Of a DNA stretch of 64,000 nt, positions 15,486-64,000 are shown piece after piece. The stretch comes from Loxodes magnus (Eukaryota > Ciliophora > Karyorelictea > Loxodida > Loxodidae). The stretch's first letter is position 1. Every line of letters starts with the position of its first letter. The notes under the pieces are model-generated. The model searched no databases. It worked only from the letters and a program-made list of their open reading frames with translations, and had not been told where the DNA came from. Position numbers and translations under genes: made by a program. The DNA lies in NCBI GenBank assembly GCA_946699065.1, contig CAMPDV010000006.1, positions 124,001-188,000 of the forward strand. The letters are read 5' to 3'.

Positions 15486-15501
15486 AACTAAATTATTTTT
15501 A

Positions 15502-22710: not shown

Positions 22711-23233
22711 TTAAGTAATTTATTACAAAAATAAATAAATTTCCTTATTTTTGTAATTTTTATTAAGCTATTTTTTATAATTATTGTCATATTTTCAATA
22801 TATTGGATGAAAATTTTCATCCAATATCTAATTTTGTTTAAGGGACTTAAAGAAATAATTACTTAAGAAAAATATTTGTCAGACTTAAATTAGAAAAATG
22901 CTCTATAGTTTTGCTTTTATTAAATATAGGAAATACTGAATATGAGTTAATGAAAAGCTTCAAGTAGAAAGCCTAAAACAAAATAAAAGTTAACTCTTAA
23001 TTAAATATAAAAAGGATTACTTTATATAGTTTAAAAGCTAAAAGTGATAATATAATTTATATTCCTAATATTATTATTTTGCATCTTATTTTAAATTTAC
23101 CCTATCTATTAGCTTTTACATTTTCTAACTTATGCTAATTTTTTTTAATTTAATATTAGAAAATTTTATTATATATAAAATAGATTCTTAGCATATGATT
23201 CTTGAAAACTCTAAAAATATAGTAATAATAATA
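22711..23233. other. AT-rich spacer, nothing recognised
   Basis: No coding frame, tRNA or named repeat seen. An inverted pair ATTGGATGAAAATTTTCATCCAAT lies at 22,802-22,825, a perfect short palindrome of unknown role. Confidence 0.4.
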
Positions 23234-23470
23234 ATTTATTAACGTGAAGTCATCTTTATTTGGATTTCCACGAATTAATAGTTTATTGTTAAATAATAGA
23301 AACTTCAAATTTGTCTAAATCAAGTCTATCATAAATTCTCAAGATTTTTAATTTATTTTTACTAATGATTTCCAATAGGTCAATTCTCATTCATTTCTTA
23401 TTGAACTCATTGACTGCTTGCTAAATATGTGCAGCTTCTTTGTTTATTTGAAGTTTTTTTTTCCTGTATA
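23234..23470 (-). mobile_element. LINE-type 3' fragment (family 2), copy 2
   Basis: Minus-strand sequence encoding IRNEWELTYWKSLVKINQKS and EFMIDLIQTNLKFLLF, then ending in a terminus with AAAGATGACTTCACG and TTATTATTATT. It matches the plus-strand copy at 17,150-17,372. It lies tandem to another copy of the same terminus at 23,480. Confidence 0.5.
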
Positions 23471-38400: not shown

Positions 38401-39123
38401 GAATATCATTTTTCCTTAACCTTATCTAACTCCATTTACAAACTAACCTTCATAAATATCCCCATTTTAGTAATTATATATTCCATTTTATAGTTCATCG
38501 TTTTTTCAAACTCCTTCAAAAGTTTCACCATTTTTGTAAATCATTTTTCCTTAACCTTATCTGAATCCATTTACAAACTGGCCTTCATAAATATATTCAT
38601 TTTTATAACCAAAAGATCCACTTTCATTTTGAAGCTTATTTTTTAAATAACCTTCATTTACTTTTTGGTTTTAGTATATCATTTTTCCTTTTCCTTATTT
38701 TTATCTTTTTATTAGCTGACCCACATAAATGTTTCCATTTGGATAAATATAAAACCCATTTCCATTATAAGGTTCATTATTTCGTCATTCACCTTCAAAA
38801 GATTCCCCATTTTTATATATAATTTTTCCTTTTCCTTATCTTTTGCTGTTTTCAATCTAGCCTTCATAACTATCACCATTTTAGTATTTAATCATTTATA
38901 TTCCTTAAATATTTTCATTTTCTGCTTAATCTTTTTAATTTTCTCCAATTTATAACTTTTTTAATTCCTAATCATTATCTGCTAAATTTGACTAAAGTTC
39001 TCCTGTGGATTCCTTTAATTTTTAATTTTCTTGTCTAAAAGCATATTTTTATTATTTATCTATATCCAATAGAGAAGATGGATCTTATTAGTTTTAATGG
39101 AATATACTTTAAGTTGATTCCAT
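35423..39123 (-). repeat. Arm B of the inverted duplication
   Basis: Reverse-complement counterpart of 6.66-10.64 kb. The stretch 35,423-36,960 (LRR half) differs from arm A at only a few bases, including a shared double TGA stop. The linker at about 37,060-37,270 has several indels, and the MORN half has fewer repeats and more substitutions. The gradient suggests recent gene conversion of the 3' half or recombination between older paralogues. Confidence 0.8.
35475..39123 (-). pseudogene. Second MORN / F-box / LRR gene, frame shifted in the linker
   Basis: Starts at ATG 39,123 with a leader different from its partner (MESTQSIFHQNQQDPSSLLD), a coiled stretch (QENQKLKESTGELQSNLADN), then about 11 pairs of MORN motifs with TGA or TGG at the conserved Trp. 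The F-box and LRR part ends at the double TGA at 35,480-35,475 and is almost identical to the plus-strand partner. Between MORN and F-box the linker carries several small insertions and deletions relative to the partner (for instance an extra base near 37,284 and losses near 37,245, 37,105 and 37,070). The distance from ATG to stop is not a multiple of three. Either the MORN and LRR parts are now separate proteins, or the gene is decaying. Antisense open frames at 37.6-38.4 kb are shadows of the MORN repeats. Confidence 0.65.
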
Positions 39124-39299
39124 GCTTAAATTTATTAATTAAGAAATAAAGATTGAATATATAGACTAAAGCAATGTAACTCTTAGCTTTTTAATTTAAA
39201 TTTAATTACTTTATCTGAGTATTAATATACACTAACTAGGAAATTAATAAAATGGTAGTAAAAGCTAGAAATACATGTGACTGACATATATGCTTATCT

Positions 39300-39950
39300 T
39301 CAGATAAATCTGAAACTACTCGCTTTTTTTCTTAATGGAGATATAAATAAGAAAATCCATAGATATAAGTACCTACATCAGACTTAAAAAACTAAAATTT
39401 GCAATAAAGCTTATTTGCTTTCGGTATATTAAGCTAAGGAAGCTACAGAAATTACTAAAGTAACTACTTCAGGTTTAATAATTAAGCTACTAGTATAACT
39501 TAAAACATTGGAAAGTGATGTTTGAATTATTATAAAGTAGAGCAAAATATTTCCATAATTACTTAGCACTATAAAAATCTTAGAGTAAAAAGCTCCAAAT
39601 GATCCATATAATTTATAAGCTATTTCTGAACAGCTGATTTATCCAGTTTAGTTGCAAGCTTAAATATACAAATCGCTAGTATAAATACACAAGCAAAACA
39701 CCAAAATGATCCACAAATTTCCATATAACATTCCTCAAACTCTTGCAACATAAGGAAGTGCAACGATATCGATTCCTATGATAGTAGTAATTATCATAAG
39801 AATAACAGAATAAAAATGAGTAGTTTTCAATTACTACTCTTCTATCTCCTACTACATCTCTCCATCTAAAATCCCTTTCTAACTAGTGATATTTACCTCT
39901 TTAATATAATCCTAAGGAAGTTACTAGTAAACCATTCCTTTAATTCCCAT
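39300..39950 (-). CDS. Amino-acid transporter (Aa_trans / AAAP family), N-terminal half only
   Basis: Minus-strand frame of 216 codons from ATG 39,950 to an in-frame TGA at 39,302-39,300. A hydrophilic leader (about 50 residues, GMVYQQLPQDYIKEVN and later EMQQEIEEQQ) precedes membrane segments typical of the family: SVILMIITTIIGIDIVALPY (TM1 with the usual G...LP break), NLWIILVFCLCIYTSDLYI (TM2-3), SEIAYKLYGSFG, and NILLYFIIIQTSLSNVLS. One Trp in ARVWGMLYG is TGA. The family normally has about 11 membrane segments and 400-500 residues, so over half is missing. The truncation lies within 200 bp of the start of the inverted MORN/F-box/LRR copy, suggesting that the duplication removed the 3' half. 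It is probably non-functional. Confidence 0.75.
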
Positions 39951-40054
39951 TTATATAGTTATGTTTCAAGATATTAAATACTAATTTTTAATAAATATTG
40001 AAGTAGTGTCATTTCATCCTTTCGTTAATATTAAAGATCAGATTCTGTTTATAA

Positions 40055-40593
40055 TAATTATTATATTATATATATTTATTAAATAACCATAGTTGTTCAA
40101 AGGTGAAAAACAAGGGACAGCTTCGTCAGAGGTTGGGGAAGTTAAGTACCCATAATCGACTTTATGTCTTCCTCTGCTTTGGCTTGGCCTCGAGACATCT
40201 GTTAATTTGGCCTTCGGCACTGGTTTATTTCATTTTTTTATTCTGGAAATAAAAAGAAATTATTTCTGCGGGCTTCATTAGAGGTGTGGAATTTAAGCAC
40301 CCATAATTGACACATGTCGTCCTCTGCTTTGGTGATGCAATGAGACGCAACCCTGCCATGTCCTTGAACCTCCAACAAGTATTAAAGATTACGAGTATTC
40401 TGAAATTATATCAGTATTGAAAATTTTTATAAGTACTGAATAATTATACCAGTATTGAACAAGTTTTATCAGTATCTGATAATTTTATCAGTAACAAACA
40501 TTCTTGTCAGTATGAAATATTTTTTTAAAGAGCTGCGCACCAACGAGAGTGCTACGCGCTCTATAATCAAATTTATTTATTTATTTATTTATA
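40055..40593 (+). mobile_element. Dimeric SINE-like element, copy 2
   Basis: Plus-strand partner of the copy at 11.1-11.65 kb. It begins near CCATAGTTGTTCAAAGGTG, has two related monomers (40,110-40,200 and 40,270-40,355), minirepeats with CAGTATTGAA, the terminal hairpin (GAGCTGCGCACCAACGAG / GCTACGCGCTC) and four or more TTTA units. It sits just upstream of the transporter fragment. Confidence 0.7.
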
Positions 40594-40896: not shown

Positions 40897-40983
40897 CGCC
40901 CGAAAGGGTGAATCGAACACCTGAGACTCTCGTCTCCCTAGGATTTGAAGTCCTAGCCGAAGTCCACCCCGGGTCATCTAGGC
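40897..40983 (-). tRNA. tRNA-Sec, anticodon UCA
   Basis: An 87-nt minus-strand gene. The 3' part GATTCACCCTTTCGGGCG and the anticodon arm CTAGGA-CTTCAAA-TCCTAG (6-bp stem, anticodon TCA) match eukaryotic selenocysteine tRNAs. The long variable arm is GAGAC-GAGA-GTCTC and the T arm is GGTG-TTCGATT-CACC. The D arm has an extended stem with a tiny loop, also typical of tRNA-Sec. The acceptor starts GCCTAGATGA, close to the family's GCCCGGATGA, with one or two weak pairs. A tRNA-Trp(UCA) is excluded by the long variable arm. In this organism UGA also means Trp and stop. Confidence 0.9.
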
Positions 40984-44542: not shown

Positions 44543-44762
44543 GAAAAAGAGACTACTCGAATGAATCTTTGTTGTAATAATTAAATAATAAAAATTAAAG
44601 AAGGCAAAGTAATATAATTCATAATATGTCACCTTCAATTTAGATAAACAAGTATAAACAGTCTAAATACTTCTAAAAGAATTAATAAATGTTCAAAACA
44701 TAATGTGATATTTTGTCATTATAATTTCCGATTGAAAAATTAAATCTACTAGAAATTCTCCT

Positions 44763-44780
44763 ATAAAATATATTATAAAG
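44763..44780 (+). promoter_or_regulatory. Candidate TATA region upstream of the 61-codon gene (each unit)
   Basis: ATAAAATATATTATAAAG lies 37-54 bp before the ATG in unit 1 and in the same place in every unit. It is the most TATA-like run near the start, but in such AT-rich DNA this is weak evidence. Confidence 0.3.
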
Positions 44781-44816
44781 TCATTATATATTTCCATTTT
44801 ATTTTATCTATCTATA

Positions 44817-45002
44817 ATGGAATCTCAAAATTCTTCAAAGGCAACCAATTATGCAAATGATAACCGATCCAACTAGCTCAATCCTAATAACTCTCAATAT
44901 CAAGGAACTGAATCTAATAAATCATCAAGTAGTTATGCCAAAGATAACCGATCTAACCAGCTCAACTCTAACAACTTTCGTTACCAAGGAAAAAAAAGTT
45001 GA
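44817..45002 (+). CDS. Array gene, copy 1: 61-residue Asn/Gln/Ser-rich protein
   Basis: ATG 44,817 to TGA 45,000-45,002, with a TAG codon read as Gln inside. The protein starts MESQNSSKATN and contains two copies of a 19-residue motif: YANDNRSNQLNPNNSQYQG and YAKDNRSNQLNSNNFRYQG, then GKKS-like end (KKS). Between the two motif copies six codons differ synonymously (GCA/GCC, TCC/TCT, TAG/CAG, AAT/AAC twice, TAT/TAC) and four change the residue. This excess of silent changes, including TAG/CAG which is silent only when TAG is Gln, supports translation in this frame. There is no signal peptide or membrane segment; the protein is polar, low-complexity and probably disordered. I recognise no family. 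At least 15 copies exist, so high expression or a copy-number role is possible. Confidence 0.7.
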
Positions 45003-45200
45003 TAGGTACTTTATAACAATATTTACTGATTAAGTCTTAAATAAATCTGTATATTCTAAATCACATTTACATTGCCTAAATTAAGTTTATGCTTTTTTAC
45101 TTTGATTTGCCCTAAAGCCTTACATTTTTTTAATTTGTTTTTTTATTAGCGGCGAAATAAGTCGATCAATTTTGAGCTGATTACGTTAAACGTCTTTTAC

Positions 45201-45224
45201 ATCGATATTTTTATCATATTTATA
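45201..45224 (+). repeat. ATCGATATTTTTA motif, first of two per unit
   Basis: ATCGATATTTTTATCAT and the following TTTAT recur in slightly altered form 434 bp later in the unit. Both occur once each in every unit, on either side of the AT-rich centre. Confidence 0.5.
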
Positions 45225-45634
45225 TGAAAAAGTGATCCTTTTTTTTTACATTTGTAAATAGCAGTTTTAAAATTTTATTTTCTATTTTTTTCAGTTTTTA
45301 AATTTTTATCTTTATATTTTTCTTTATTCGTATTTGAATTTATATATACATTTTTTTATTTTGCATTATTAAAAGAGTAAACATAAAATGTTTTAGATTT
45401 TTAAATGAAAGGTTTTCAGCTTGAAAAGAATAAAAATGCAAAATGTTTTTTATTATCATTTTTATTTTTTTCCTTTCTTGTTTTTTTATTTTTTTTGTTT
45501 CATTAAAAAAACAAGAGATCTTTATATTGTCATTTTCATTAGACTTCACTAGAGTTTTCGATATTTTAATTCGAATTTTACTGGAATAGAAAAAAACTAT
45601 TTCTTTAAACAAATTTAGAGTGACTTATAAAAAA

Positions 45635-45658
45635 ATCGATATTTTTAGATCATTTTAT
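45635..45658 (+). repeat. ATCGATATTTTTA motif, second of two per unit
   Basis: ATCGATATTTTTAGATCAT then TTTAT; near-identical to the motif at 45,201. It lies 30 bp before the possible 58-codon frame, so a regulatory or origin role is conceivable but unproven. Confidence 0.5.
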
Positions 45659-45687
45659 TGTGTGAAAAATAAGTTTTATTTCAATAA

Positions 45688-45864
45688 ATGAATTAAAATC
45701 AAGGGGTTTATGTTCATGATTGGAATTTTCACCTCCTCCTTCTTATAAAATCCAGAACTACTTTCTCTTACCACAGCCTAGCTTCAACCTTATTCAAACC
45801 GACAAATGCTATTGCTAAAAGTTTCGAACAGAAGAATTAACGCAACTCCAAACGCCTCCATTGA
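45688..45864 (+). CDS. Possible 58-codon gene in each array unit
   Basis: ATG 45,688 to TGA 45,862-45,864, repeated in all complete units. The protein reads MNQNQGVYVHDWNFHLLLL, then SRTTFSYHSLASTLFKPTNA and a basic end (QKNQRNSKRLH). This part of the unit is the least AT-rich, and third positions carry many C. But the other two plus-strand frames across the same bases also give plausible peptides, so the frame is uncertain. Its TGA coincides with the boundary where the first array unit begins, which is why I favour it slightly. No family recognised. Confidence 0.3.
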
Positions 45865-46137
45865 AAAAAGAGACTACTCGAATGAATCTTTGTTGTAATA
45901 ATTAAATAATAAAAATTAAAGAAGGCAAAGTAATATAATTCATAATATGTCACCTTCAATTTAGATAAACAAGTATAAACAGTCTAAATACTTCTAAAAG
46001 AATTAATAAATGTTCAAAACATAATGTGATATTTTGTCATTATAATTTCCGATTGAAAAATTAAATCTACTAGAAATTCTCCTATAAAATATATTATAAA
46101 GTCATTATATATTTCCATTTTATTTTATCTATCTATA

Positions 46138-46323
46138 ATGGAATCTCAAAATTCTTCAAAGGCAACCAATTATGCAAATGATAACCGATCCAACTAGCTC
46201 AATCCTAATAACTCTCAATATCAAGGAACTGAATCTAATAAATCATCAAGTAGTTATGCCAAAGATAACCGATCTAACCAGCTCAACTCTAACAACTTTC
46301 GTTACCAAGGAAAAAAAAGTTGA
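46138..46323 (+). CDS. Array gene, copy 2
   Basis: Same 61-codon Asn/Gln/Ser-rich protein as copy 1, in a 1321-bp unit. Confidence 0.7.
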
Positions 46324-47458
46324 TAGGTACTTTATAACAATATTTACTGATTAAGTCTTAAATAAATCTGTATATTCTAAATCACATTTACATTGCCTAA
46401 ATTAAGTTTATGCTTTTTTACTTTGATTTGCCCTAAAGCCTTACATTTTTTTAATTTGTTTTTTTATTAGCGGCGAAATAAGTCGATCAATTTTGAGCTG
46501 ATTACGTTAAACGTCTTTTACATCGATATTTTTATCATATTTATATGAAAAAGTGATCCTTTTTTTTTACATTTGTAAATAGCAGTTTTAAAATTTTATT
46601 TTCTATTTTTTTCAGTTTTTAAATTTTTATCTTTATATTTTTCTTTATTCGTATTTGAATTTATATATACATTTTTTTATTTTGCATTATTAAAAGAGTA
46701 AACATAAAATGTTTTAGATTTTTAAATGAAAGGTTTTCAGCTTGAAAAGAATAAAAATGCAAAATGTTTTTTATTATCATTTTTATTTTTTTCCTTTCTT
46801 GTTTTTTTATTTTTTTTGTTTCATTAAAAAAACAAGAGATCTTTATATTGTCATTTTCATTAGACTTCACTAGAGTTTTCGATATTTTAATTCGAATTTT
46901 ACTGGAATAGAAAAAAACTATTTCTTTAAACAAATTTAGAGTGACTTATAAAAAAATCGATATTTTTAGATCATTTTATTGTGTGAAAAATAAGTTTTAT
47001 TTCAATAAATGAATTAAAATCAAGGGGTTTATGTTCATGATTGGAATTTTCACCTCCTCCTTCTTATAAAATCCAGAACTACTTTCTCTTACCACAGCCT
47101 AGCTTCAACCTTATTCAAACCGACAAATGCTATTGCTAAAAGTTTCGAACAGAAGAATTAACGCAACTCCAAACGCCTCCATTGAAAAAAGAGACTACTC
47201 GAATGAATCTTTGTTGTAATAATTAAATAATAAAAATTAAAGAAGGCAAAGTAATATAATTCATAATATGTCACCTTCAATTTAGATAAACAAGTATAAA
47301 CAGTCTAAATACTTCTAAAAGAATTAATAAATGTTCAAAACATAATGTGATATTTTGTCATTATAATTTCCGATTGAAAAATTAAATCTACTAGAAATTC
47401 TCCTATAAAATATATTATAAAGTCATTATATATTTCCATTTTATTTTATCTATCTATA

Positions 47459-47644
47459 ATGGAATCTCAAAATTCTTCAAAGGCAACCAATTATGCAAAT
47501 GATAACCGATCCAACTAGCTCAATCCTAATAACTCTCAATATCAAGGAACTGAATCTAATAAATCATCAAGTAGTTATGCCAAAGATAACCGATCTAACC
47601 AGCTCAACTCTAACAACTTTCGTTACCAAGGAAAAAAAAGTTGA
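47459..47644 (+). CDS. Array gene, copy 3
   Basis: Same protein as copy 1; first copy in a unit with the 4-bp-shorter spacer downstream. Confidence 0.7.
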
Positions 47645-48775
47645 TAGGTACTTTATAACAATATTTACTGATTAAGTCTTAAATAAATCTGTATATTCTA
47701 AATCACATTTACATTGCCTAAATTAAGTTTATGCTTTTTTACTTTGATTTGCCCTAAAGCCTTACATTTTTTTAATTTGTTTTTTTATTAGCGGCGAAAT
47801 AAGTCGATCAATTTTGAGCTACGTTAAACGTCTTTTGCATCGATATTTTTATCATATTTATATGAAAAAGTGATCCTTTTTTTTTACATTTGTAAATAGC
47901 AGTTTTAAAATTTTATTTTCTATTTTTTTCAGTTTTTAAATTTTTATCTTTATATTTTTCTTTATTCGTATTTGAATTTATATATACATTTTTTTATTTT
48001 GCATTATTAAAAGAGTAAACATAAAATGTTTTAGATTTTTAAATGAAAGGTTTTCAGCTTGAAAAGAATAAAAATGCAAAATGTTTTTTATTATCATTTT
48101 TATTTTTTTCCTTTCTTGTTTTTTAATTTTTTTTGTTTCATTAAAAAAACAAGAGATCTTTATATTGTCATTTTCATTAGACTTCACTAGAGTTTTCGAT
48201 ATTTTAATTCGAATTTTACTGGAATAGAAAAAAACTATTTCTTTAAACAAATTTAGAGTGACTTATAAAAAAATCGATATTTTTAGATCATTTTATTGTG
48301 TGAAAAATAAGTTTTATTTCAATAAATGAATTAAAATCAAGGGGTTTATGTTCATGATTGGAATTTTCACCTCCTCCTTCTTATAAAATCCAGAACTACT
48401 TTCTCTTACCACAGCCTAGCTTCAACCTTATTCAAACCGACAAATGCTATTGCTAAAAGTTTCGAACAGAAGAATTAACGCAACTCCAAACGCCTCCATT
48501 GAAAAAAGAGACTACTCGAATGAATCTTTGTTGTAATAATTAAATAATAAAAATTAAAGAAGGCAAAGTAATATAATTCATAATATGTCACCTTCAATTT
48601 AGATAAACAAGTATAAACAGTCTAAATACTTCTAAAAGAATTAATAAATGTTCAAAACATAATGTGATATTTTGTCATTATAATTTCCGATTGAAAAATT
48701 AAATCTACTAGAAATTCTCCTATAAAATATATTATAAAGTCATTATATATTTCCATTTTATTTTATCTATCTATA

Positions 48776-48961
48776 ATGGAATCTCAAAATTCTTCAAAGG
48801 CAACCAATTATGCAAATGATAACCGATCCAACTAGCTCAATCCTAATAACTCTCAATATCAAGGAACTGAATCTAATAAATCATCAAGTAGTTATGCCAA
48901 AGATAACCGATCTAACCAGCTCAACTCTAACAACTTTCGTTACCAAGGAAAAAAAAGTTGA
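48776..48961 (+). CDS. Array gene, copy 4
   Basis: Same protein as copy 1, 1317-bp unit type. Confidence 0.7.
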
Positions 48962-50092
48962 TAGGTACTTTATAACAATATTTACTGATTAAGTCTTAAA
49001 TAAATCTGTATATTCTAAATCACATTTACATTGCCTAAATTAAGTTTATGCTTTTTTACTTTGATTTGCCCTAAAGCCTTACATTTTTTTAATTTGTTTT
49101 TTTATTAGCGGCGAAATAAGTCGATCAATTTTGAGCTACGTTAAACGTCTTTTGCATCGATATTTTTATCATATTTATATGAAAAAGTGATCCTTTTTTT
49201 TTACATTTGTAAATAGCAGTTTTAAAATTTTATTTTCTATTTTTTTCAGTTTTTAAATTTTTATCTTTATATTTTTCTTTATTCGTATTTGAATTTATAT
49301 ATACATTTTTTTATTTTGCATTATTAAAAGAGTAAACATAAAATGTTTTAGATTTTTAAATGAAAGGTTTTCAGCTTGAAAAGAATAAAAATGCAAAATG
49401 TTTTTTATTATCATTTTTATTTTTTTCCTTTCTTGTTTTTTAATTTTTTTTGTTTCATTAAAAAAACAAGAGATCTTTATATTGTCATTTTCATTAGACT
49501 TCACTAGAGTTTTCGATATTTTAATTCGAATTTTACTGGAATAGAAAAAAACTATTTCTTTAAACAAATTTAGAGTGACTTATAAAAAAATCGATATTTT
49601 TAGATCATTTTATTGTGTGAAAAATAAGTTTTATTTCAATAAATGAATTAAAATCAAGGGGTTTATGTTCATGATTGGAATTTTCACCTCCTCCTTCTTA
49701 TAAAATCCAGAACTACTTTCTCTTACCACAGCCTAGCTTCAACCTTATTCAAACCGACAAATGCTATTGCTAAAAGTTTCGAACAGAAGAATTAACGCAA
49801 CTCCAAACGCCTCCATTGAAAAAAGAGACTACTCGAATGAATCTTTGTTGTAATAATTAAATAATAAAAATTAAAGAAGGCAAAGTAATATAATTCATAA
49901 TATGTCACCTTCAATTTAGATAAACAAGTATAAACAGTCTAAATACTTCTAAAAGAATTAATAAATGTTCAAAACATAATGTGATATTTTGTCATTATAA
50001 TTTCCGATTGAAAAATTAAATCTACTAGAAATTCTCCTATAAAATATATTATAAAGTCATTATATATTTCCATTTTATTTTATCTATCTATA

Positions 50093-50278
50093 ATGGAATC
50101 TCAAAATTCTTCAAAGGCAACCAATTATGCAAATGATAACCGATCCAACTAGCTCAATCCTAATAACTCTCAATATCAAGGAACTGAATCTAATAAATCA
50201 TCAAGTAGTTATGCCAAAGATAACCGATCTAACCAGCTCAACTCTAACAACTTTCGTTACCAAGGAAAAAAAAGTTGA
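50093..50278 (+). CDS. Array gene, copy 5
   Basis: Same protein as copy 1, 1317-bp unit type. Confidence 0.7.
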
Positions 50279-51409
50279 TAGGTACTTTATAACAATATTT
50301 ACTGATTAAGTCTTAAATAAATCTGTATATTCTAAATCACATTTACATTGCCTAAATTAAGTTTATGCTTTTTTACTTTGATTTGCCCTAAAGCCTTACA
50401 TTTTTTTAATTTGTTTTTTTATTAGCGGCGAAATAAGTCGATCAATTTTGAGCTACGTTAAACGTCTTTTGCATCGATATTTTTATCATATTTATATGAA
50501 AAAGTGATCCTTTTTTTTTACATTTGTAAATAGCAGTTTTAAAATTTTATTTTCTATTTTTTTCAGTTTTTAAATTTTTATCTTTATATTTTTCTTTATT
50601 CGTATTTGAATTTATATATACATTTTTTTATTTTGCATTATTAAAAGAGTAAACATAAAATGTTTTAGATTTTTAAATGAAAGGTTTTCAGCTTGAAAAG
50701 AATAAAAATGCAAAATGTTTTTTATTATCATTTTTATTTTTTTCCTTTCTTGTTTTTTAATTTTTTTTGTTTCATTAAAAAAACAAGAGATCTTTATATT
50801 GTCATTTTCATTAGACTTCACTAGAGTTTTCGATATTTTAATTCGAATTTTACTGGAATAGAAAAAAACTATTTCTTTAAACAAATTTAGAGTGACTTAT
50901 AAAAAAATCGATATTTTTAGATCATTTTATTGTGTGAAAAATAAGTTTTATTTCAATAAATGAATTAAAATCAAGGGGTTTATGTTCATGATTGGAATTT
51001 TCACCTCCTCCTTCTTATAAAATCCAGAACTACTTTCTCTTACCACAGCCTAGCTTCAACCTTATTCAAACCGACAAATGCTATTGCTAAAAGTTTCGAA
51101 CAGAAGAATTAACGCAACTCCAAACGCCTCCATTGAAAAAAGAGACTACTCGAATGAATCTTTGTTGTAATAATTAAATAATAAAAATTAAAGAAGGCAA
51201 AGTAATATAATTCATAATATGTCACCTTCAATTTAGATAAACAAGTATAAACAGTCTAAATACTTCTAAAAGAATTAATAAATGTTCAAAACATAATGTG
51301 ATATTTTGTCATTATAATTTCCGATTGAAAAATTAAATCTACTAGAAATTCTCCTATAAAATATATTATAAAGTCATTATATATTTCCATTTTATTTTAT
51401 CTATCTATA

Positions 51410-51595
51410 ATGGAATCTCAAAATTCTTCAAAGGCAACCAATTATGCAAATGATAACCGATCCAACTAGCTCAATCCTAATAACTCTCAATATCAAGGAA
51501 CTGAATCTAATAAATCATCAAGTAGTTATGCCAAAGATAACCGATCTAACCAGCTCAACTCTAACAACTTTCGTTACCAAGGAAAAAAAAGTTGA
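51410..51595 (+). CDS. Array gene, copy 6
   Basis: Same protein as copy 1, 1317-bp unit type. Confidence 0.7.
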
Positions 51596-52726
51596 TAGGT
51601 ACTTTATAACAATATTTACTGATTAAGTCTTAAATAAATCTGTATATTCTAAATCACATTTACATTGCCTAAATTAAGTTTATGCTTTTTTACTTTGATT
51701 TGCCCTAAAGCCTTACATTTTTTTAATTTGTTTTTTTATTAGCGGCGAAATAAGTCGATCAATTTTGAGCTACGTTAAACGTCTTTTGCATCGATATTTT
51801 TATCATATTTATATGAAAAAGTGATCCTTTTTTTTTACATTTGTAAATAGCAGTTTTAAAATTTTATTTTCTATTTTTTTCAGTTTTTAAATTTTTATCT
51901 TTATATTTTTCTTTATTCGTATTTGAATTTATATATACATTTTTTTATTTTGCATTATTAAAAGAGTAAACATAAAATGTTTTAGATTTTTAAATGAAAG
52001 GTTTTCAGCTTGAAAAGAATAAAAATGCAAAATGTTTTTTATTATCATTTTTATTTTTTTCCTTTCTTGTTTTTTAATTTTTTTTGTTTCATTAAAAAAA
52101 CAAGAGATCTTTATATTGTCATTTTCATTAGACTTCACTAGAGTTTTCGATATTTTAATTCGAATTTTACTGGAATAGAAAAAAACTATTTCTTTAAACA
52201 AATTTAGAGTGACTTATAAAAAAATCGATATTTTTAGATCATTTTATTGTGTGAAAAATAAGTTTTATTTCAATAAATGAATTAAAATCAAGGGGTTTAT
52301 GTTCATGATTGGAATTTTCACCTCCTCCTTCTTATAAAATCCAGAACTACTTTCTCTTACCACAGCCTAGCTTCAACCTTATTCAAACCGACAAATGCTA
52401 TTGCTAAAAGTTTCGAACAGAAGAATTAACGCAACTCCAAACGCCTCCATTGAAAAAAGAGACTACTCGAATGAATCTTTGTTGTAATAATTAAATAATA
52501 AAAATTAAAGAAGGCAAAGTAATATAATTCATAATATGTCACCTTCAATTTAGATAAACAAGTATAAACAGTCTAAATACTTCTAAAAGAATTAATAAAT
52601 GTTCAAAACATAATGTGATATTTTGTCATTATAATTTCCGATTGAAAAATTAAATCTACTAGAAATTCTCCTATAAAATATATTATAAAGTCATTATATA
52701 TTTCCATTTTATTTTATCTATCTATA

Positions 52727-52912
52727 ATGGAATCTCAAAATTCTTCAAAGGCAACCAATTATGCAAATGATAACCGATCCAACTAGCTCAATCCTAATAA
52801 CTCTCAATATCAAGGAACTGAATCTAATAAATCATCAAGTAGTTATGCCAAAGATAACCGATCTAACCAGCTCAACTCTAACAACTTTCGTTACCAAGGA
52901 AAAAAAAGTTGA
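52727..52912 (+). CDS. Array gene, copy 7
   Basis: Same protein as copy 1, 1317-bp unit type. Confidence 0.7.
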
Positions 52913-54043
52913 TAGGTACTTTATAACAATATTTACTGATTAAGTCTTAAATAAATCTGTATATTCTAAATCACATTTACATTGCCTAAATTAAGTTTAT
53001 GCTTTTTTACTTTGATTTGCCCTAAAGCCTTACATTTTTTTAATTTGTTTTTTTATTAGCGGCGAAATAAGTCGATCAATTTTGAGCTACGTTAAACGTC
53101 TTTTGCATCGATATTTTTATCATATTTATATGAAAAAGTGATCCTTTTTTTTTACATTTGTAAATAGCAGTTTTAAAATTTTATTTTCTATTTTTTTCAG
53201 TTTTTAAATTTTTATCTTTATATTTTTCTTTATTCGTATTTGAATTTATATATACATTTTTTTATTTTGCATTATTAAAAGAGTAAACATAAAATGTTTT
53301 AGATTTTTAAATGAAAGGTTTTCAGCTTGAAAAGAATAAAAATGCAAAATGTTTTTTATTATCATTTTTATTTTTTTCCTTTCTTGTTTTTTAATTTTTT
53401 TTGTTTCATTAAAAAAACAAGAGATCTTTATATTGTCATTTTCATTAGACTTCACTAGAGTTTTCGATATTTTAATTCGAATTTTACTGGAATAGAAAAA
53501 AACTATTTCTTTAAACAAATTTAGAGTGACTTATAAAAAAATCGATATTTTTAGATCATTTTATTGTGTGAAAAATAAGTTTTATTTCAATAAATGAATT
53601 AAAATCAAGGGGTTTATGTTCATGATTGGAATTTTCACCTCCTCCTTCTTATAAAATCCAGAACTACTTTCTCTTACCACAGCCTAGCTTCAACCTTATT
53701 CAAACCGACAAATGCTATTGCTAAAAGTTTCGAACAGAAGAATTAACGCAACTCCAAACGCCTCCATTGAAAAAAGAGACTACTCGAATGAATCTTTGTT
53801 GTAATAATTAAATAATAAAAATTAAAGAAGGCAAAGTAATATAATTCATAATATGTCACCTTCAATTTAGATAAACAAGTATAAACAGTCTAAATACTTC
53901 TAAAAGAATTAATAAATGTTCAAAACATAATGTGATATTTTGTCATTATAATTTCCGATTGAAAAATTAAATCTACTAGAAATTCTCCTATAAAATATAT
54001 TATAAAGTCATTATATATTTCCATTTTATTTTATCTATCTATA

Positions 54044-54229
54044 ATGGAATCTCAAAATTCTTCAAAGGCAACCAATTATGCAAATGATAACCGATCCAAC
54101 TAGCTCAATCCTAATAACTCTCAATATCAAGGAACTGAATCTAATAAATCATCAAGTAGTTATGCCAAAGATAACCGATCTAACCAGCTCAACTCTAACA
54201 ACTTTCGTTACCAAGGAAAAAAAAGTTGA
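54044..54229 (+). CDS. Array gene, copy 8
   Basis: Same protein as copy 1, 1317-bp unit type. Confidence 0.7.
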
Positions 54230-55360
54230 TAGGTACTTTATAACAATATTTACTGATTAAGTCTTAAATAAATCTGTATATTCTAAATCACATTTACATT
54301 GCCTAAATTAAGTTTATGCTTTTTTACTTTGATTTGCCCTAAAGCCTTACATTTTTTTAATTTGTTTTTTTATTAGCGGCGAAATAAGTCGATCAATTTT
54401 GAGCTACGTTAAACGTCTTTTGCATCGATATTTTTATCATATTTATATGAAAAAGTGATCCTTTTTTTTTACATTTGTAAATAGCAGTTTTAAAATTTTA
54501 TTTTCTATTTTTTTCAGTTTTTAAATTTTTATCTTTATATTTTTCTTTATTCGTATTTGAATTTATATATACATTTTTTTATTTTGCATTATTAAAAGAG
54601 TAAACATAAAATGTTTTAGATTTTTAAATGAAAGGTTTTCAGCTTGAAAAGAATAAAAATGCAAAATGTTTTTTATTATCATTTTTATTTTTTTCCTTTC
54701 TTGTTTTTTAATTTTTTTTGTTTCATTAAAAAAACAAGAGATCTTTATATTGTCATTTTCATTAGACTTCACTAGAGTTTTCGATATTTTAATTCGAATT
54801 TTACTGGAATAGAAAAAAACTATTTCTTTAAACAAATTTAGAGTGACTTATAAAAAAATCGATATTTTTAGATCATTTTATTGTGTGAAAAATAAGTTTT
54901 ATTTCAATAAATGAATTAAAATCAAGGGGTTTATGTTCATGATTGGAATTTTCACCTCCTCCTTCTTATAAAATCCAGAACTACTTTCTCTTACCACAGC
55001 CTAGCTTCAACCTTATTCAAACCGACAAATGCTATTGCTAAAAGTTTCGAACAGAAGAATTAACGCAACTCCAAACGCCTCCATTGAAAAAAGAGACTAC
55101 TCGAATGAATCTTTGTTGTAATAATTAAATAATAAAAATTAAAGAAGGCAAAGTAATATAATTCATAATATGTCACCTTCAATTTAGATAAACAAGTATA
55201 AACAGTCTAAATACTTCTAAAAGAATTAATAAATGTTCAAAACATAATGTGATATTTTGTCATTATAATTTCCGATTGAAAAATTAAATCTACTAGAAAT
55301 TCTCCTATAAAATATATTATAAAGTCATTATATATTTCCATTTTATTTTATCTATCTATA

Positions 55361-55546
55361 ATGGAATCTCAAAATTCTTCAAAGGCAACCAATTATGCAA
55401 ATGATAACCGATCCAACTAGCTCAATCCTAATAACTCTCAATATCAAGGAACTGAATCTAATAAATCATCAAGTAGTTATGCCAAAGATAACCGATCTAA
55501 CCAGCTCAACTCTAACAACTTTCGTTACCAAGGAAAAAAAAGTTGA
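55361..55546 (+). CDS. Array gene, copy 9
   Basis: Same protein as copy 1, 1317-bp unit type. Confidence 0.7.
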
Positions 55547-56677
55547 TAGGTACTTTATAACAATATTTACTGATTAAGTCTTAAATAAATCTGTATATTC
55601 TAAATCACATTTACATTGCCTAAATTAAGTTTATGCTTTTTTACTTTGATTTGCCCTAAAGCCTTACATTTTTTTAATTTGTTTTTTTATTAGCGGCGAA
55701 ATAAGTCGATCAATTTTGAGCTACGTTAAACGTCTTTTGCATCGATATTTTTATCATATTTATATGAAAAAGTGATCCTTTTTTTTTACATTTGTAAATA
55801 GCAGTTTTAAAATTTTATTTTCTATTTTTTTCAGTTTTTAAATTTTTATCTTTATATTTTTCTTTATTCGTATTTGAATTTATATATACATTTTTTTATT
55901 TTGCATTATTAAAAGAGTAAACATAAAATGTTTTAGATTTTTAAATGAAAGGTTTTCAGCTTGAAAAGAATAAAAATGCAAAATGTTTTTTATTATCATT
56001 TTTATTTTTTTCCTTTCTTGTTTTTTAATTTTTTTTGTTTCATTAAAAAAACAAGAGATCTTTATATTGTCATTTTCATTAGACTTCACTAGAGTTTTCG
56101 ATATTTTAATTCGAATTTTACTGGAATAGAAAAAAACTATTTCTTTAAACAAATTTAGAGTGACTTATAAAAAAATCGATATTTTTAGATCATTTTATTG
56201 TGTGAAAAATAAGTTTTATTTCAATAAATGAATTAAAATCAAGGGGTTTATGTTCATGATTGGAATTTTCACCTCCTCCTTCTTATAAAATCCAGAACTA
56301 CTTTCTCTTACCACAGCCTAGCTTCAACCTTATTCAAACCGACAAATGCTATTGCTAAAAGTTTCGAACAGAAGAATTAACGCAACTCCAAACGCCTCCA
56401 TTGAAAAAAGAGACTACTCGAATGAATCTTTGTTGTAATAATTAAATAATAAAAATTAAAGAAGGCAAAGTAATATAATTCATAATATGTCACCTTCAAT
56501 TTAGATAAACAAGTATAAACAGTCTAAATACTTCTAAAAGAATTAATAAATGTTCAAAACATAATGTGATATTTTGTCATTATAATTTCCGATTGAAAAA
56601 TTAAATCTACTAGAAATTCTCCTATAAAATATATTATAAAGTCATTATATATTTCCATTTTATTTTATCTATCTATA

Positions 56678-56863
56678 ATGGAATCTCAAAATTCTTCAAA
56701 GGCAACCAATTATGCAAATGATAACCGATCCAACTAGCTCAATCCTAATAACTCTCAATATCAAGGAACTGAATCTAATAAATCATCAAGTAGTTATGCC
56801 AAAGATAACCGATCTAACCAGCTCAACTCTAACAACTTTCGTTACCAAGGAAAAAAAAGTTGA
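56678..56863 (+). CDS. Array gene, copy 10
   Basis: Same protein as copy 1, in a 1321-bp unit that otherwise carries the T-run variant of the 1317-bp units. Confidence 0.7.
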
Positions 56864-57998
56864 TAGGTACTTTATAACAATATTTACTGATTAAGTCTTA
56901 AATAAATCTGTATATTCTAAATCACATTTACATTGCCTAAATTAAGTTTATGCTTTTTTACTTTGATTTGCCCTAAAGCCTTACATTTTTTTAATTTGTT
57001 TTTTTATTAGCGGCGAAATAAGTCGATCAATTTTGAGCTGATTACGTTAAACGTCTTTTACATCGATATTTTTATCATATTTATATGAAAAAGTGATCCT
57101 TTTTTTTTACATTTGTAAATAGCAGTTTTAAAATTTTATTTTCTATTTTTTTCAGTTTTTAAATTTTTATCTTTATATTTTTCTTTATTCGTATTTGAAT
57201 TTATATATACATTTTTTTATTTTGCATTATTAAAAGAGTAAACATAAAATGTTTTAGATTTTTAAATGAAAGGTTTTCAGCTTGAAAAGAATAAAAATGC
57301 AAAATGTTTTTTATTATCATTTTTATTTTTTTCCTTTCTTGTTTTTTAATTTTTTTTGTTTCATTAAAAAAACAAGAGATCTTTATATTGTCATTTTCAT
57401 TAGACTTCACTAGAGTTTTCGATATTTTAATTCGAATTTTACTGGAATAGAAAAAAACTATTTCTTTAAACAAATTTAGAGTGACTTATAAAAAAATCGA
57501 TATTTTTAGATCATTTTATTGTGTGAAAAATAAGTTTTATTTCAATAAATGAATTAAAATCAAGGGGTTTATGTTCATGATTGGAATTTTCACCTCCTCC
57601 TTCTTATAAAATCCAGAACTACTTTCTCTTACCACAGCCTAGCTTCAACCTTATTCAAACCGACAAATGCTATTGCTAAAAGTTTCGAACAGAAGAATTA
57701 ACGCAACTCCAAACGCCTCCATTGAAAAAAGAGACTACTCGAATGAATCTTTGTTGTAATAATTAAATAATAAAAATTAAAGAAGGCAAAGTAATATAAT
57801 TCATAATATGTCACCTTCAATTTAGATAAACAAGTATAAACAGTCTAAATACTTCTAAAAGAATTAATAAATGTTCAAAACATAATGTGATATTTTGTCA
57901 TTATAATTTCCGATTGAAAAATTAAATCTACTAGAAATTCTCCTATAAAATATATTATAAAGTCATTATATATTTCCATTTTATTTTATCTATCTATA

Positions 57999-58184
57999 AT
58001 GGAATCTCAAAATTCTTCAAAGGCAACCAATTATGCAAATGATAACCGATCCAACTAGCTCAATCCTAATAACTCTCAATATCAAGGAACTGAATCTAAT
58101 AAATCATCAAGTAGTTATGCCAAAGATAACCGATCTAACCAGCTCAACTCTAACAACTTTCGTTACCAAGGAAAAAAAAGTTGA
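57999..58184 (+). CDS. Array gene, copy 11
   Basis: Same protein as copy 1, 1317-bp unit type. Confidence 0.7.
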
Positions 58185-59315
58185 TAGGTACTTTATAACA
58201 ATATTTACTGATTAAGTCTTAAATAAATCTGTATATTCTAAATCACATTTACATTGCCTAAATTAAGTTTATGCTTTTTTACTTTGATTTGCCCTAAAGC
58301 CTTACATTTTTTTAATTTGTTTTTTTATTAGCGGCGAAATAAGTCGATCAATTTTGAGCTACGTTAAACGTCTTTTGCATCGATATTTTTATCATATTTA
58401 TATGAAAAAGTGATCCTTTTTTTTTACATTTGTAAATAGCAGTTTTAAAATTTTATTTTCTATTTTTTTCAGTTTTTAAATTTTTATCTTTATATTTTTC
58501 TTTATTCGTATTTGAATTTATATATACATTTTTTTATTTTGCATTATTAAAAGAGTAAACATAAAATGTTTTAGATTTTTAAATGAAAGGTTTTCAGCTT
58601 GAAAAGAATAAAAATGCAAAATGTTTTTTATTATCATTTTTATTTTTTTCCTTTCTTGTTTTTTAATTTTTTTTGTTTCATTAAAAAAACAAGAGATCTT
58701 TATATTGTCATTTTCATTAGACTTCACTAGAGTTTTCGATATTTTAATTCGAATTTTACTGGAATAGAAAAAAACTATTTCTTTAAACAAATTTAGAGTG
58801 ACTTATAAAAAAATCGATATTTTTAGATCATTTTATTGTGTGAAAAATAAGTTTTATTTCAATAAATGAATTAAAATCAAGGGGTTTATGTTCATGATTG
58901 GAATTTTCACCTCCTCCTTCTTATAAAATCCAGAACTACTTTCTCTTACCACAGCCTAGCTTCAACCTTATTCAAACCGACAAATGCTATTGCTAAAAGT
59001 TTCGAACAGAAGAATTAACGCAACTCCAAACGCCTCCATTGAAAAAAGAGACTACTCGAATGAATCTTTGTTGTAATAATTAAATAATAAAAATTAAAGA
59101 AGGCAAAGTAATATAATTCATAATATGTCACCTTCAATTTAGATAAACAAGTATAAACAGTCTAAATACTTCTAAAAGAATTAATAAATGTTCAAAACAT
59201 AATGTGATATTTTGTCATTATAATTTCCGATTGAAAAATTAAATCTACTAGAAATTCTCCTATAAAATATATTATAAAGTCATTATATATTTCCATTTTA
59301 TTTTATCTATCTATA

Positions 59316-59501
59316 ATGGAATCTCAAAATTCTTCAAAGGCAACCAATTATGCAAATGATAACCGATCCAACTAGCTCAATCCTAATAACTCTCAATATC
59401 AAGGAACTGAATCTAATAAATCATCAAGTAGTTATGCCAAAGATAACCGATCTAACCAGCTCAACTCTAACAACTTTCGTTACCAAGGAAAAAAAAGTTG
59501 A
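59316..59501 (+). CDS. Array gene, copy 12
   Basis: Same protein as copy 1, 1317-bp unit type. Confidence 0.7.
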
Positions 59502-60632
59502 TAGGTACTTTATAACAATATTTACTGATTAAGTCTTAAATAAATCTGTATATTCTAAATCACATTTACATTGCCTAAATTAAGTTTATGCTTTTTTACT
59601 TTGATTTGCCCTAAAGCCTTACATTTTTTTAATTTGTTTTTTTATTAGCGGCGAAATAAGTCGATCAATTTTGAGCTACGTTAAACGTCTTTTGCATCGA
59701 TATTTTTATCATATTTATATGAAAAAGTGATCCTTTTTTTTTACATTTGTAAATAGCAGTTTTAAAATTTTATTTTCTATTTTTTTCAGTTTTTAAATTT
59801 TTATCTTTATATTTTTCTTTATTCGTATTTGAATTTATATATACATTTTTTTATTTTGCATTATTAAAAGAGTAAACATAAAATGTTTTAGATTTTTAAA
59901 TGAAAGGTTTTCAGCTTGAAAAGAATAAAAATGCAAAATGTTTTTTATTATCATTTTTATTTTTTTCCTTTCTTGTTTTTTAATTTTTTTTGTTTCATTA
60001 AAAAAACAAGAGATCTTTATATTGTCATTTTCATTAGACTTCACTAGAGTTTTCGATATTTTAATTCGAATTTTACTGGAATAGAAAAAAACTATTTCTT
60101 TAAACAAATTTAGAGTGACTTATAAAAAAATCGATATTTTTAGATCATTTTATTGTGTGAAAAATAAGTTTTATTTCAATAAATGAATTAAAATCAAGGG
60201 GTTTATGTTCATGATTGGAATTTTCACCTCCTCCTTCTTATAAAATCCAGAACTACTTTCTCTTACCACAGCCTAGCTTCAACCTTATTCAAACCGACAA
60301 ATGCTATTGCTAAAAGTTTCGAACAGAAGAATTAACGCAACTCCAAACGCCTCCATTGAAAAAAGAGACTACTCGAATGAATCTTTGTTGTAATAATTAA
60401 ATAATAAAAATTAAAGAAGGCAAAGTAATATAATTCATAATATGTCACCTTCAATTTAGATAAACAAGTATAAACAGTCTAAATACTTCTAAAAGAATTA
60501 ATAAATGTTCAAAACATAATGTGATATTTTGTCATTATAATTTCCGATTGAAAAATTAAATCTACTAGAAATTCTCCTATAAAATATATTATAAAGTCAT
60601 TATATATTTCCATTTTATTTTATCTATCTATA

Positions 60633-60818
60633 ATGGAATCTCAAAATTCTTCAAAGGCAACCAATTATGCAAATGATAACCGATCCAACTAGCTCAATCC
60701 TAATAACTCTCAATATCAAGGAACTGAATCTAATAAATCATCAAGTAGTTATGCCAAAGATAACCGATCTAACCAGCTCAACTCTAACAACTTTCGTTAC
60801 CAAGGAAAAAAAAGTTGA
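60633..60818 (+). CDS. Array gene, copy 13
   Basis: Same protein as copy 1, 1317-bp unit type. Confidence 0.7.
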
Positions 60819-61949
60819 TAGGTACTTTATAACAATATTTACTGATTAAGTCTTAAATAAATCTGTATATTCTAAATCACATTTACATTGCCTAAATTAA
60901 GTTTATGCTTTTTTACTTTGATTTGCCCTAAAGCCTTACATTTTTTTAATTTGTTTTTTTATTAGCGGCGAAATAAGTCGATCAATTTTGAGCTACGTTA
61001 AACGTCTTTTGCATCGATATTTTTATCATATTTATATGAAAAAGTGATCCTTTTTTTTTACATTTGTAAATAGCAGTTTTAAAATTTTATTTTCTATTTT
61101 TTTCAGTTTTTAAATTTTTATCTTTATATTTTTCTTTATTCGTATTTGAATTTATATATACATTTTTTTATTTTGCATTATTAAAAGAGTAAACATAAAA
61201 TGTTTTAGATTTTTAAATGAAAGGTTTTCAGCTTGAAAAGAATAAAAATGCAAAATGTTTTTTATTATCATTTTTATTTTTTTCCTTTCTTGTTTTTTAA
61301 TTTTTTTTGTTTCATTAAAAAAACAAGAGATCTTTATATTGTCATTTTCATTAGACTTCACTAGAGTTTTCGATATTTTAATTCGAATTTTACTGGAATA
61401 GAAAAAAACTATTTCTTTAAACAAATTTAGAGTGACTTATAAAAAAATCGATATTTTTAGATCATTTTATTGTGTGAAAAATAAGTTTTATTTCAATAAA
61501 TGAATTAAAATCAAGGGGTTTATGTTCATGATTGGAATTTTCACCTCCTCCTTCTTATAAAATCCAGAACTACTTTCTCTTACCACAGCCTAGCTTCAAC
61601 CTTATTCAAACCGACAAATGCTATTGCTAAAAGTTTCGAACAGAAGAATTAACGCAACTCCAAACGCCTCCATTGAAAAAAGAGACTACTCGAATGAATC
61701 TTTGTTGTAATAATTAAATAATAAAAATTAAAGAAGGCAAAGTAATATAATTCATAATATGTCACCTTCAATTTAGATAAACAAGTATAAACAGTCTAAA
61801 TACTTCTAAAAGAATTAATAAATGTTCAAAACATAATGTGATATTTTGTCATTATAATTTCCGATTGAAAAATTAAATCTACTAGAAATTCTCCTATAAA
61901 ATATATTATAAAGTCATTATATATTTCCATTTTATTTTATCTATCTATA

Positions 61950-62135
61950 ATGGAATCTCAAAATTCTTCAAAGGCAACCAATTATGCAAATGATAACCGA
62001 TCCAACTAGCTCAATCCTAATAACTCTCAATATCAAGGAACTGAATCTAATAAATCATCAAGTAGTTATGCCAAAGATAACCGATCTAACCAGCTCAACT
62101 CTAACAACTTTCGTTACCAAGGAAAAAAAAGTTGA
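61950..62135 (+). CDS. Array gene, copy 14
   Basis: Same protein as copy 1, in a 1321-bp unit. Confidence 0.7.
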
Positions 62136-63270
62136 TAGGTACTTTATAACAATATTTACTGATTAAGTCTTAAATAAATCTGTATATTCTAAATCACATT
62201 TACATTGCCTAAATTAAGTTTATGCTTTTTTACTTTGATTTGCCCTAAAGCCTTACATTTTTTTAATTTGTTTTTTTATTAGCGGCGAAATAAGTCGATC
62301 AATTTTGAGCTGATTACGTTAAACGTCTTTTACATCGATATTTTTATCATATTTATATGAAAAAGTGATCCTTTTTTTTTACATTTGTAAATAGCAGTTT
62401 TAAAATTTTATTTTCTATTTTTTTCAGTTTTTAAATTTTTATCTTTATATTTTTCTTTATTCGTATTTGAATTTATATATACATTTTTTTATTTTGCATT
62501 ATTAAAAGAGTAAACATAAAATGTTTTAGATTTTTAAATGAAAGGTTTTCAGCTTGAAAAGAATAAAAATGCAAAATGTTTTTTATTATCATTTTTATTT
62601 TTTTCCTTTCTTGTTTTTTAATTTTTTTTGTTTCATTAAAAAAACAAGAGATCTTTATATTGTCATTTTCATTAGACTTCACTAGAGTTTTCGATATTTT
62701 AATTCGAATTTTACTGGAATAGAAAAAAACTATTTCTTTAAACAAATTTAGAGTGACTTATAAAAAAATCGATATTTTTAGATCATTTTATTGTGTGAAA
62801 AATAAGTTTTATTTCAATAAATGAATTAAAATCAAGGGGTTTATGTTCATGATTGGAATTTTCACCTCCTCCTTCTTATAAAATCCAGAACTACTTTCTC
62901 TTACCACAGCCTAGCTTCAACCTTATTCAAACCGACAAATGCTATTGCTAAAAGTTTCGAACAGAAGAATTAACGCAACTCCAAACGCCTCCATTGAAAA
63001 AAGAGACTACTCGAATGAATCTTTGTTGTAATAATTAAATAATAAAAATTAAAGAAGGCAAAGTAATATAATTCATAATATGTCACCTTCAATTTAGATA
63101 AACAAGTATAAACAGTCTAAATACTTCTAAAAGAATTAATAAATGTTCAAAACATAATGTGATATTTTGTCATTATAATTTCCGATTGAAAAATTAAATC
63201 TACTAGAAATTCTCCTATAAAATATATTATAAAGTCATTATATATTTCCATTTTATTTTATCTATCTATA

Positions 63271-63456
63271 ATGGAATCTCAAAATTCTTCAAAGGCAACC
63301 AATTATGCAAATGATAACCGATCCAACTAGCTCAATCCTAATAACTCTCAATATCAAGGAACTGAATCTAATAAATCATCAAGTAGTTATGCCAAAGATA
63401 ACCGATCTAACCAGCTCAACTCTAACAACTTTCGTTACCAAGGAAAAAAAAGTTGA
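63271..63456 (+). CDS. Array gene, copy 15
   Basis: Same protein as copy 1; the unit is cut by the window end, so the array continues. Confidence 0.7.
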
Positions 63457-64000
63457 TAGGTACTTTATAACAATATTTACTGATTAAGTCTTAAATAAAT
63501 CTGTATATTCTAAATCACATTTACATTGCCTAAATTAAGTTTATGCTTTTTTACTTTGATTTGCCCTAAAGCCTTACATTTTTTTAATTTGTTTTTTTAT
63601 TAGCGGCGAAATAAGTCGATCAATTTTGAGCTACGTTAAACGTCTTTTGCATCGATATTTTTATCATATTTATATGAAAAAGTGATCCTTTTTTTTTACA
63701 TTTGTAAATAGCAGTTTTAAAATTTTATTTTCTATTTTTTTCAGTTTTTAAATTTTTATCTTTATATTTTTCTTTATTCGTATTTGAATTTATATATACA
63801 TTTTTTTATTTTGCATTATTAAAAGAGTAAACATAAAATGTTTTAGATTTTTAAATGAAAGGTTTTCAGCTTGAAAAGAATAAAAATGCAAAATGTTTTT
63901 TATTATCATTTTTATTTTTTTCCTTTCTTGTTTTTTAATTTTTTTTGTTTCATTAAAAAAACAAGAGATCTTTATATTGTCATTTTCATTAGACTTCACT

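Follow-up and report, generated by a model that had tools for sequence, protein, structure and literature searches.

A homogeneous tandem array of a probable 61-codon gene in the ciliate Loxodes magnus, with a product assigned to an unnamed small-protein family

The right-hand part of the window, by which we mean the whole 64,000-nucleotide stretch of Loxodes magnus DNA that was analysed (contig CAMPDV010000006.1, positions 124,001 to 188,000 of the forward strand), is occupied by a tandem array with a small open reading frame (ORF) of 61 codons in every unit. Based on the data presented below, we consider it reasonably probable that this is a macrosatellite-like array of genes, kept homogeneous, by which the dose of a small and probably disordered protein is increased. 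Each unit would then be a small single gene consisting of an upstream sequence, the 61-codon uninterrupted ORF ending at TGA and an AT-rich spacer. The array would be chromosomal and located in the nuclear genome, each of its units being transcribed, with unequal crossing-over and gene conversion keeping the copies alike and with the dosage of the small protein being its likely use.

A first-pass annotation had described here a near-identical tandem array of about 1.3 kb per unit, running beyond the window and carrying a protein frame of 61 residues in each unit, and this description is borne out. Using a 25-base anchor from the ORF start, the stretch between 44,544 and the window end is resolved into 15 units of 1,317 or 1,321 bp in head-to-tail order (about 14.8 unit lengths), with the anchor spacing being 1,317 bp in 10 of the 14 intervals and 1,321 bp in the other four. 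In the MAFFT alignment of the 14 complete units, 6 of the 1,321 columns are variable, corresponding to three events, namely a TGAT indel, an A/G difference linked with it and a T/A difference, none of which lies inside the ORF. The indel and the linked A/G, which characterise the 1,321-bp type, are present in units 1, 2, 10 and 14 and are therefore interspersed, while the T/A variant is present in units 1 and 2 only, at the array edge. The last unit is cut by the window end after 730 bp and is identical to unit 4 throughout this length. All 15 ORFs are intact and have one and the same 186-bp sequence (61 codons plus TGA). At the left edge, exact unit identity starts at 44,544, giving a partial unit of 273 bp upstream of the first ATG at 44,817, and base-by-base comparison places the junction within a short TGAAAAA run that the unit also contains. 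No further copy of the unit is seen in bases 1-44,530, where the best blastn match is 22 bp long (E = 0.001), and the matches of the left flank to the unit are limited to short AT-rich pieces. It is noted that the array is missing from the list of Tandem Repeats Finder because the longest period there is 500. Given its length and identity, chance is not considered an issue as the source of the array. Homogeneous kilobase-scale units arranged head to tail, with an intact ORF in each, are what characterises a gene-bearing macrosatellite.

The ORF itself is very probably a genuine gene, as judged from the mostly synonymous differences between its internal repeats and from its membership in a family with DNRSNQLNPNN motifs. 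The product is polar and contains two copies of the motif YAxDNRSNQLNxNNxxYQG. Between the two internal repeats, a short comparison of 18 codons each, there are 11 base differences, of which 6.5 are synonymous over 11.2 sites and 4.5 nonsynonymous over 42.8 sites, giving dS = 1.12 and dN = 0.11 (binomial tail P = 0.014, with 6.5 entered as 6). One of the synonymous pairs is TAG/CAG, both of which are Gln only in this type of genetic code. The GC content of the ORF (33.9%) can be compared with that of a stretch of the window carrying an S10 carboxypeptidase gene (31.0%) and with the values for L. magnus of 33.5% in coding sequence and 18.6% in 3' untranslated regions (PMC11441545). By comparison with 0.34 in the ORF, the blocks of the unit from the stop to about unit position 900 have GC contents of 0.10-0.28. 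The Gln codons CAA, CAG, TAG and TAA are used 4, 1, 1 and 0 times in the ORF and 9, 0, 10 and 14 times in the S10 stretch, with the latter counts including five codons beyond the probable stop (Fisher P = 0.016); this difference may be explained by nearness to the stop. A structure model of the product by AlphaFold2 with 8 sequences has a mean pLDDT of 54.1, a pTM of 0.14 and one short helix, and the low confidence together with the composition suggests a disordered protein, the alignment being too shallow for more than this. Of the roles that had been put forward for the peptide, a structural one is not supported by this model, and a secreted one is not supported either, with no hydrophobic stretch being seen by inspection among the 61 residues.

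The plain ciliate code with which the window had been translated is incomplete, in that TGA is additionally Trp in two genes. The S10 carboxypeptidase gene, starting at 20,818 on the minus strand, forms a single frame only when TGA is taken as a sense codon, and reading TGA as Trp gives a match to Pfam Peptidase_S10 with E = 9.1e-71 that covers profile positions 9-420. It has 6 TGG and 7 TGA codons, the last TGA (codon 442) probably being its stop. Among the six internal TGA codons, one falls on a Trp common to KEX1 and carboxypeptidase Y ('LKW'/'LPW' in solved-structure alignments), another falls on the Tyr after 'SYAG' in these two proteins, and the others are at variable or unaligned positions. 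The second gene, at 6.3-8.75 kb, encodes MORN repeats, in which Phe and Trp alternate at the residue after [YF]xGx. Over 22 matches of this motif, the residue is Phe in 10, TGA in 7, TGG in 2 and another codon in 3; over the 18 matches in the other arm of the inverted duplication described further below, the corresponding numbers are 9, 5, 2 and 2. The S10 and MORN genes thus have the characteristics of a karyorelict code, with TAA/TAG as Gln and TGA as Trp at conserved positions. Therefore, TGA is Trp as well as stop in this window, which fits NCBI table 27, the code of karyorelicts with TGA = Trp and TAA/TAG = Gln (PMC11441545). The Condylostoma code, having the same TAA/TAG and TGA features, may also be compatible with the window.

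With such a code, the first in-frame TGA of the array ORF is likely its stop, because coding UGAs in L. magnus are depleted over about 20 codons ahead of the true stop (PMC11441545) and the next in-frame TGA is located 9 codons farther on, because several family members end a few residues beyond the second motif as the array ORF does, and because the GC content drops from 0.34 in the ORF to 0.22 past its TGA. The window also contains a selenocysteine tRNA gene at 40,898-40,983 on the minus strand (Rfam RF01852, 63.5 bits; ARAGORN concurs), in a genome that also uses UGA as Trp and stop. Such threefold use of UGA was already described for Condylostoma and Parduczia by Swart et al. 2016 (PMC4967479).

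By sequence comparison, the array protein (P0001) is assigned to an unnamed small-protein family of Asgard archaea, a few Pseudomonadota and phage-like contigs. When the prokaryotic genome collection was scanned with the single protein, two of the 99 pattern matches proved to be relatives, one from Candidatus Harpocratesius repetitus (L001, 49 residues) and one from Shewanella kaireitica (L002, 46 residues), with 59% and 50% identity, respectively, to P0001 in alignment A1 and with the DNRSNQLNPNN-type motif in common. From the organism names, we take the phylum of Harpocratesius to be Asgard and that of Shewanella to be Pseudomonadota. Each of these two genomes has one match and hence no array, unlike Loxodes; moreover, the linker of the ciliate protein is longer by 10 residues than those of the two relatives, and the ciliate protein has two clear motifs while the Shewanella protein has one.

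A three-row profile of P0001 and these two relatives (E <= 0.001) finds matches in 26 of the 227 genomes of the Harpocratesius phylum, 25 besides the seed genome, whereas after shuffling its columns it finds 0/227 at E <= 0.001 and 5/227 at E <= 0.1 (best E = 0.0065). In the Shewanella class, it matches 1 of 321 genomes, which is the Shewanella seed genome itself. A 19-row profile gives 33 matches, 5 of them with a stop, in 28/227 genomes of the Harpocratesius phylum, a number inflated by the seeds because alignment A2 includes sequences from the same genomes, so that 26/227 is the cleaner count; its shuffled version, which had 18 rows, gives 0/227 at 0.001 and 1/227 at 0.1 (best E = 0.05). 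When phage-type members are included, the profile matches 9 of 398 genomes of the Shewanella phylum, the seed genome counted, of which five have clear small proteins; in two (L059, L060) the motif occurs once, at the beginning of a longer protein, and in two (L061, L062) the pattern showed no motif. In viral contigs, 13 loci were confirmed from 32 pattern matches, this number including near-duplicates (L047/L063; L048/L049/L064; L068/L069; L071/L072), a contig already counted (L066), a locus with a single motif (L067) and one where the pattern saw no motif (L070). As seen in alignments A2 and A4, the family is characterised by two D-N-[RH]-[SA]-[ND]-Q-[LM]-N-P-N-N-like motifs in a protein of 40-70 residues, and P0001 conforms to this, with Ser in place of Pro in its second repeat. 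When the ciliate row is removed, the resulting 18-row profile still picks out the ORF with E = 2.7e-15 among 990 window peptides, the next best being 0.53, and scores its product at 53.5 bits as compared with at most 3.7 bits in 2,000 shuffles of the product.

For P0001, Pfam, NCBIfam and the PDB copy give no match and PHROGs gives one at chance level (E = 1.4); a composite family probe finds nothing in plasmids or phages, and the literature searched has no mention of DNRSNQLNPNN-type motif strings. The earlier description of a small protein gene of unknown family is supported, and homologous genes outside arrays, the lack of which it had named as a point against it, are present in prokaryotes and phage-like contigs. 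As a separate observation, the loci L059, L060 and L067 encode longer proteins in which a single 'DRDNRSNQLNPNNxAY'-like motif is placed close to the start, in the manner of a tag or docking motif; for those of L059 and L060, Pfam gives no match above the cut-off.

Of the 34 regions retrieved around prokaryotic relatives, 30 contain a recognisable motif gene. Three neighbour clusters were found, each in three loci, two of them sharing one trio (L078, L083, L104); because no cluster occurs in more than three loci, no conserved partner gene is evident. Near some bacterial and viral copies there are genes of mobile elements, chosen by eye and thus indicating a tendency rather than a count: phage integrases (L093, L095), a DNA methylase and a cell wall hydrolase (L006), YqaJ (L051), a small terminase and an HNH nuclease slightly below the Pfam cut-off (L047), an HNH nuclease (L098) and a serine recombinase (L046). 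In Shewanella kaireitica (L002, 3766-5123), the small gene with the NPNN motif lies directly downstream of a viperin gene (pVip, E = 1.7e-94) and a HicA-like gene, and in this single case it is possibly the third gene of a viperin defence locus. Although it adjoins viperin, the small protein matches no PADLOC model of anti-phage systems at E <= 0.1, and at the same threshold PADLOC gives 0 families for P0001, P0002 and P0003. A defence-related role of the array protein, as once suggested, thus finds no support beyond one bacterial relative beside a viperin gene.

Several other readings of the unit were rejected. An RNA gene is rejected because no match in the unit reaches the Rfam gathering score (the best has 18.4 bits versus 43), the only match in the window that does so being the selenocysteine tRNA, outside the array; the minimum of the fold z-score (-5.3, near unit position 601) corresponds to a 16-nt inverted repeat in AT-rich DNA. 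A histone array is rejected because neither P0001 nor the two other long ORFs of the unit (238 and 167 residues under code 6) have a histone match in Pfam, which together with the Rfam result agrees with the previous statement that the unit contains neither rRNA nor histone. These two ORFs are rejected in their turn, each having one Pfam match below the cut-off (10 and 14.1 bits versus 25). That the unit DNA came from a phage or plasmid is rejected as well, with blastn giving no match in plasmids and one 106-bp match (E = 8e-4) in phages. The exact DNA pattern of the second motif copy, which does not fit the first copy, is found in 0 viral contigs.

The main rival to an array serving dosage is an ordinary satellite that captured a small gene, where the copy number would have no function and one or a few copies would be enough. 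Low-complexity tandem repeats make up 231 of 706 Mbp of the macronuclear (MAC) and 359 of 848 Mbp of the micronuclear (MIC) assembly of L. magnus (PMC11441545), and since Loxodes assemblies are so rich in tandem repeats, the array as such is less surprising. It is also consistent with a satellite that the ORF takes up 186 of 1,317 bp, leaving about 86% of the unit outside it, and that homogeneity is typical for satellites. By contrast, the sign of purifying selection between the internal repeats of the ORF and the 273 bp of upstream region retained by the first ORF argue against it, as does, weakly given so little variation, the fact that all 15 copies are intact and identical; overall, we regard the captured-gene satellite as unlikely. 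That the copy number is an assembly artefact, produced by the assembler from an array of smaller size or from a circular or rolling-circle template, is improbable. The array extends to the window end, and misassembly of low-complexity repeats is suspected by the Loxodes authors as the cause of the MIC/MAC differences in assembly size (PMC11441545). If a consensus had been looped, however, identical units would be expected, while in fact the order of the two unit types is irregular and one variant is restricted to the two edge units; moreover, the left flank has no unit match beyond the short AT-rich pieces.

It is very improbable that the array is a selfish amplified gene, the protein or the array favouring its own transmission over serving the cell. 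The layout of one gene per unit resembles that of the Stellate arrays of Drosophila, and several bacterial and viral relatives are near mobile-element genes, these neighbours being chosen by eye, but nothing in the window points to a partner or suppressor, and the prokaryotic loci have no conserved neighbour. With regard to origin, it can be proposed, tentatively and with considerable doubt, that a small gene of a prokaryotic or phage mobile element entered the ciliate nuclear genome and, once amplified to a homogenised array, would supply a disordered DNRSNQLNPNN protein at a eukaryote-scale dose. If this is true, the family would mark an unrecognised cross-domain function of very short proteins in Asgard archaea, bacteria and phages.

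Several points weigh against a dosage array of a conserved small gene. Because the 15 ORFs are identical, selection from copy to copy is not measurable, and the poor structure model is compatible with disorder without proving it. Given the suspected misassembly of repeats, the copy number is unsure. The family motif is short and Asn-rich, and the family rows were collected through searches starting from the ciliate sequence; with P0001 as a single sequence, no relative is found in viral contigs (0 of 10 stretches) or in phage records, and the one match in plasmids is weak (E = 3). Finally, a second GC-richer stretch at about unit positions 900-1080 (e.g., window positions 49,676-49,855), with GC contents of 0.33-0.38 versus 0.18-0.22 on either side, has no match to a protein or RNA family; it may represent a promoter or a short gene that escaped recognition.

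Gene-bearing macrosatellites such as RS447/USP17 and D4Z4, and likewise Drosophila Stellate, are long head-to-tail arrays of kilobase-sized units with a protein gene in each. The Loxodes array has a similar layout, and differs from them in that those contain other genes in other organisms, while its protein is of 61 residues and has relatives found in prokaryotes and phage-like contigs. The L. magnus rDNA is likewise arranged in head-to-tail chromosomal tandem arrays (PMC11441545), from which the 1.3-kb unit differs in having no match at an Rfam gathering score. The literature on ciliate protein-gene arrays that was searched gave no description of the 1.3-kb array of Loxodes. In its layout, the array is a case of a known kind, the gene-bearing macrosatellite, encoding a protein with no match above chance level in the family libraries searched.

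The coordinates of the array and of the other features are collected in the table. Elsewhere in the window there is a large inverted duplication (6,600-11,653 and 35,390-40,593), with MORN-repeat coding sequence on both arms and with blocks of 92-94% identity (7161-10668 versus 38886-35390; 11111-11653 versus 40593-40051). There are also short dispersed repeat families of 82-91% identity (12,983-13,306; 15,499-15,812; 26,082-26,359; also 17,136-17,369 and 23,225-23,460), which have no Rfam match and are possible mobile elements.

Table. Positions in the window of the array, its ORF copies and the stretch used for reading the genetic code
Feature	Coordinates	Strand	Basis or remark
Tandem array, about 14.8 units of 1,317/1,321 bp, cut by window end	44544..64000	+	anchor spacing, alignment
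Leading partial unit, upstream region of first ORF	44544..44816	+	base-by-base comparison
ORF copy 1, 61 residues + TGA	44817..45002	+	
ORF copy 2, reference translation P0001	46138..46323	+	
ORF copy 3	47459..47644	+	
ORF copy 4	48776..48961	+	unit 48776-50092 is the reference unit
ORF copy 5	50093..50278	+	
ORF copy 6	51410..51595	+	
ORF copy 7	52727..52912	+	
ORF copy 8	54044..54229	+	
ORF copy 9	55361..55546	+	
ORF copy 10	56678..56863	+	
ORF copy 11	57999..58184	+	
ORF copy 12	59316..59501	+	
ORF copy 13	60633..60818	+	
ORF copy 14	61950..62135	+	
ORF copy 15	63271..63456	+	
TGAT indel marking the 1,321-bp type (also units 1, 10, 14)	46499..46502	+	alignment columns 362-365
Stretch with S10 carboxypeptidase gene, in-frame TGA codons	19400..20818	-	shows the genetic code used for reading the array

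The array suggests that real genes are present inside the tandem repeats of karyorelict-type genomes. In the L. magnus pipeline, gene predictions were compared with Tandem Repeats Finder regions of periods up to 2000, using bedtools with the options -v -f 1.0 (PMC11441545); judging from these options, genes lying wholly within arrays were probably set aside, and other amplified genes may be hidden likewise in the L. magnus gene predictions. Moreover, the small-protein family has members in a ciliate as well as in Asgard archaea, bacteria and phage-like contigs, and its motif is conserved enough for testing.

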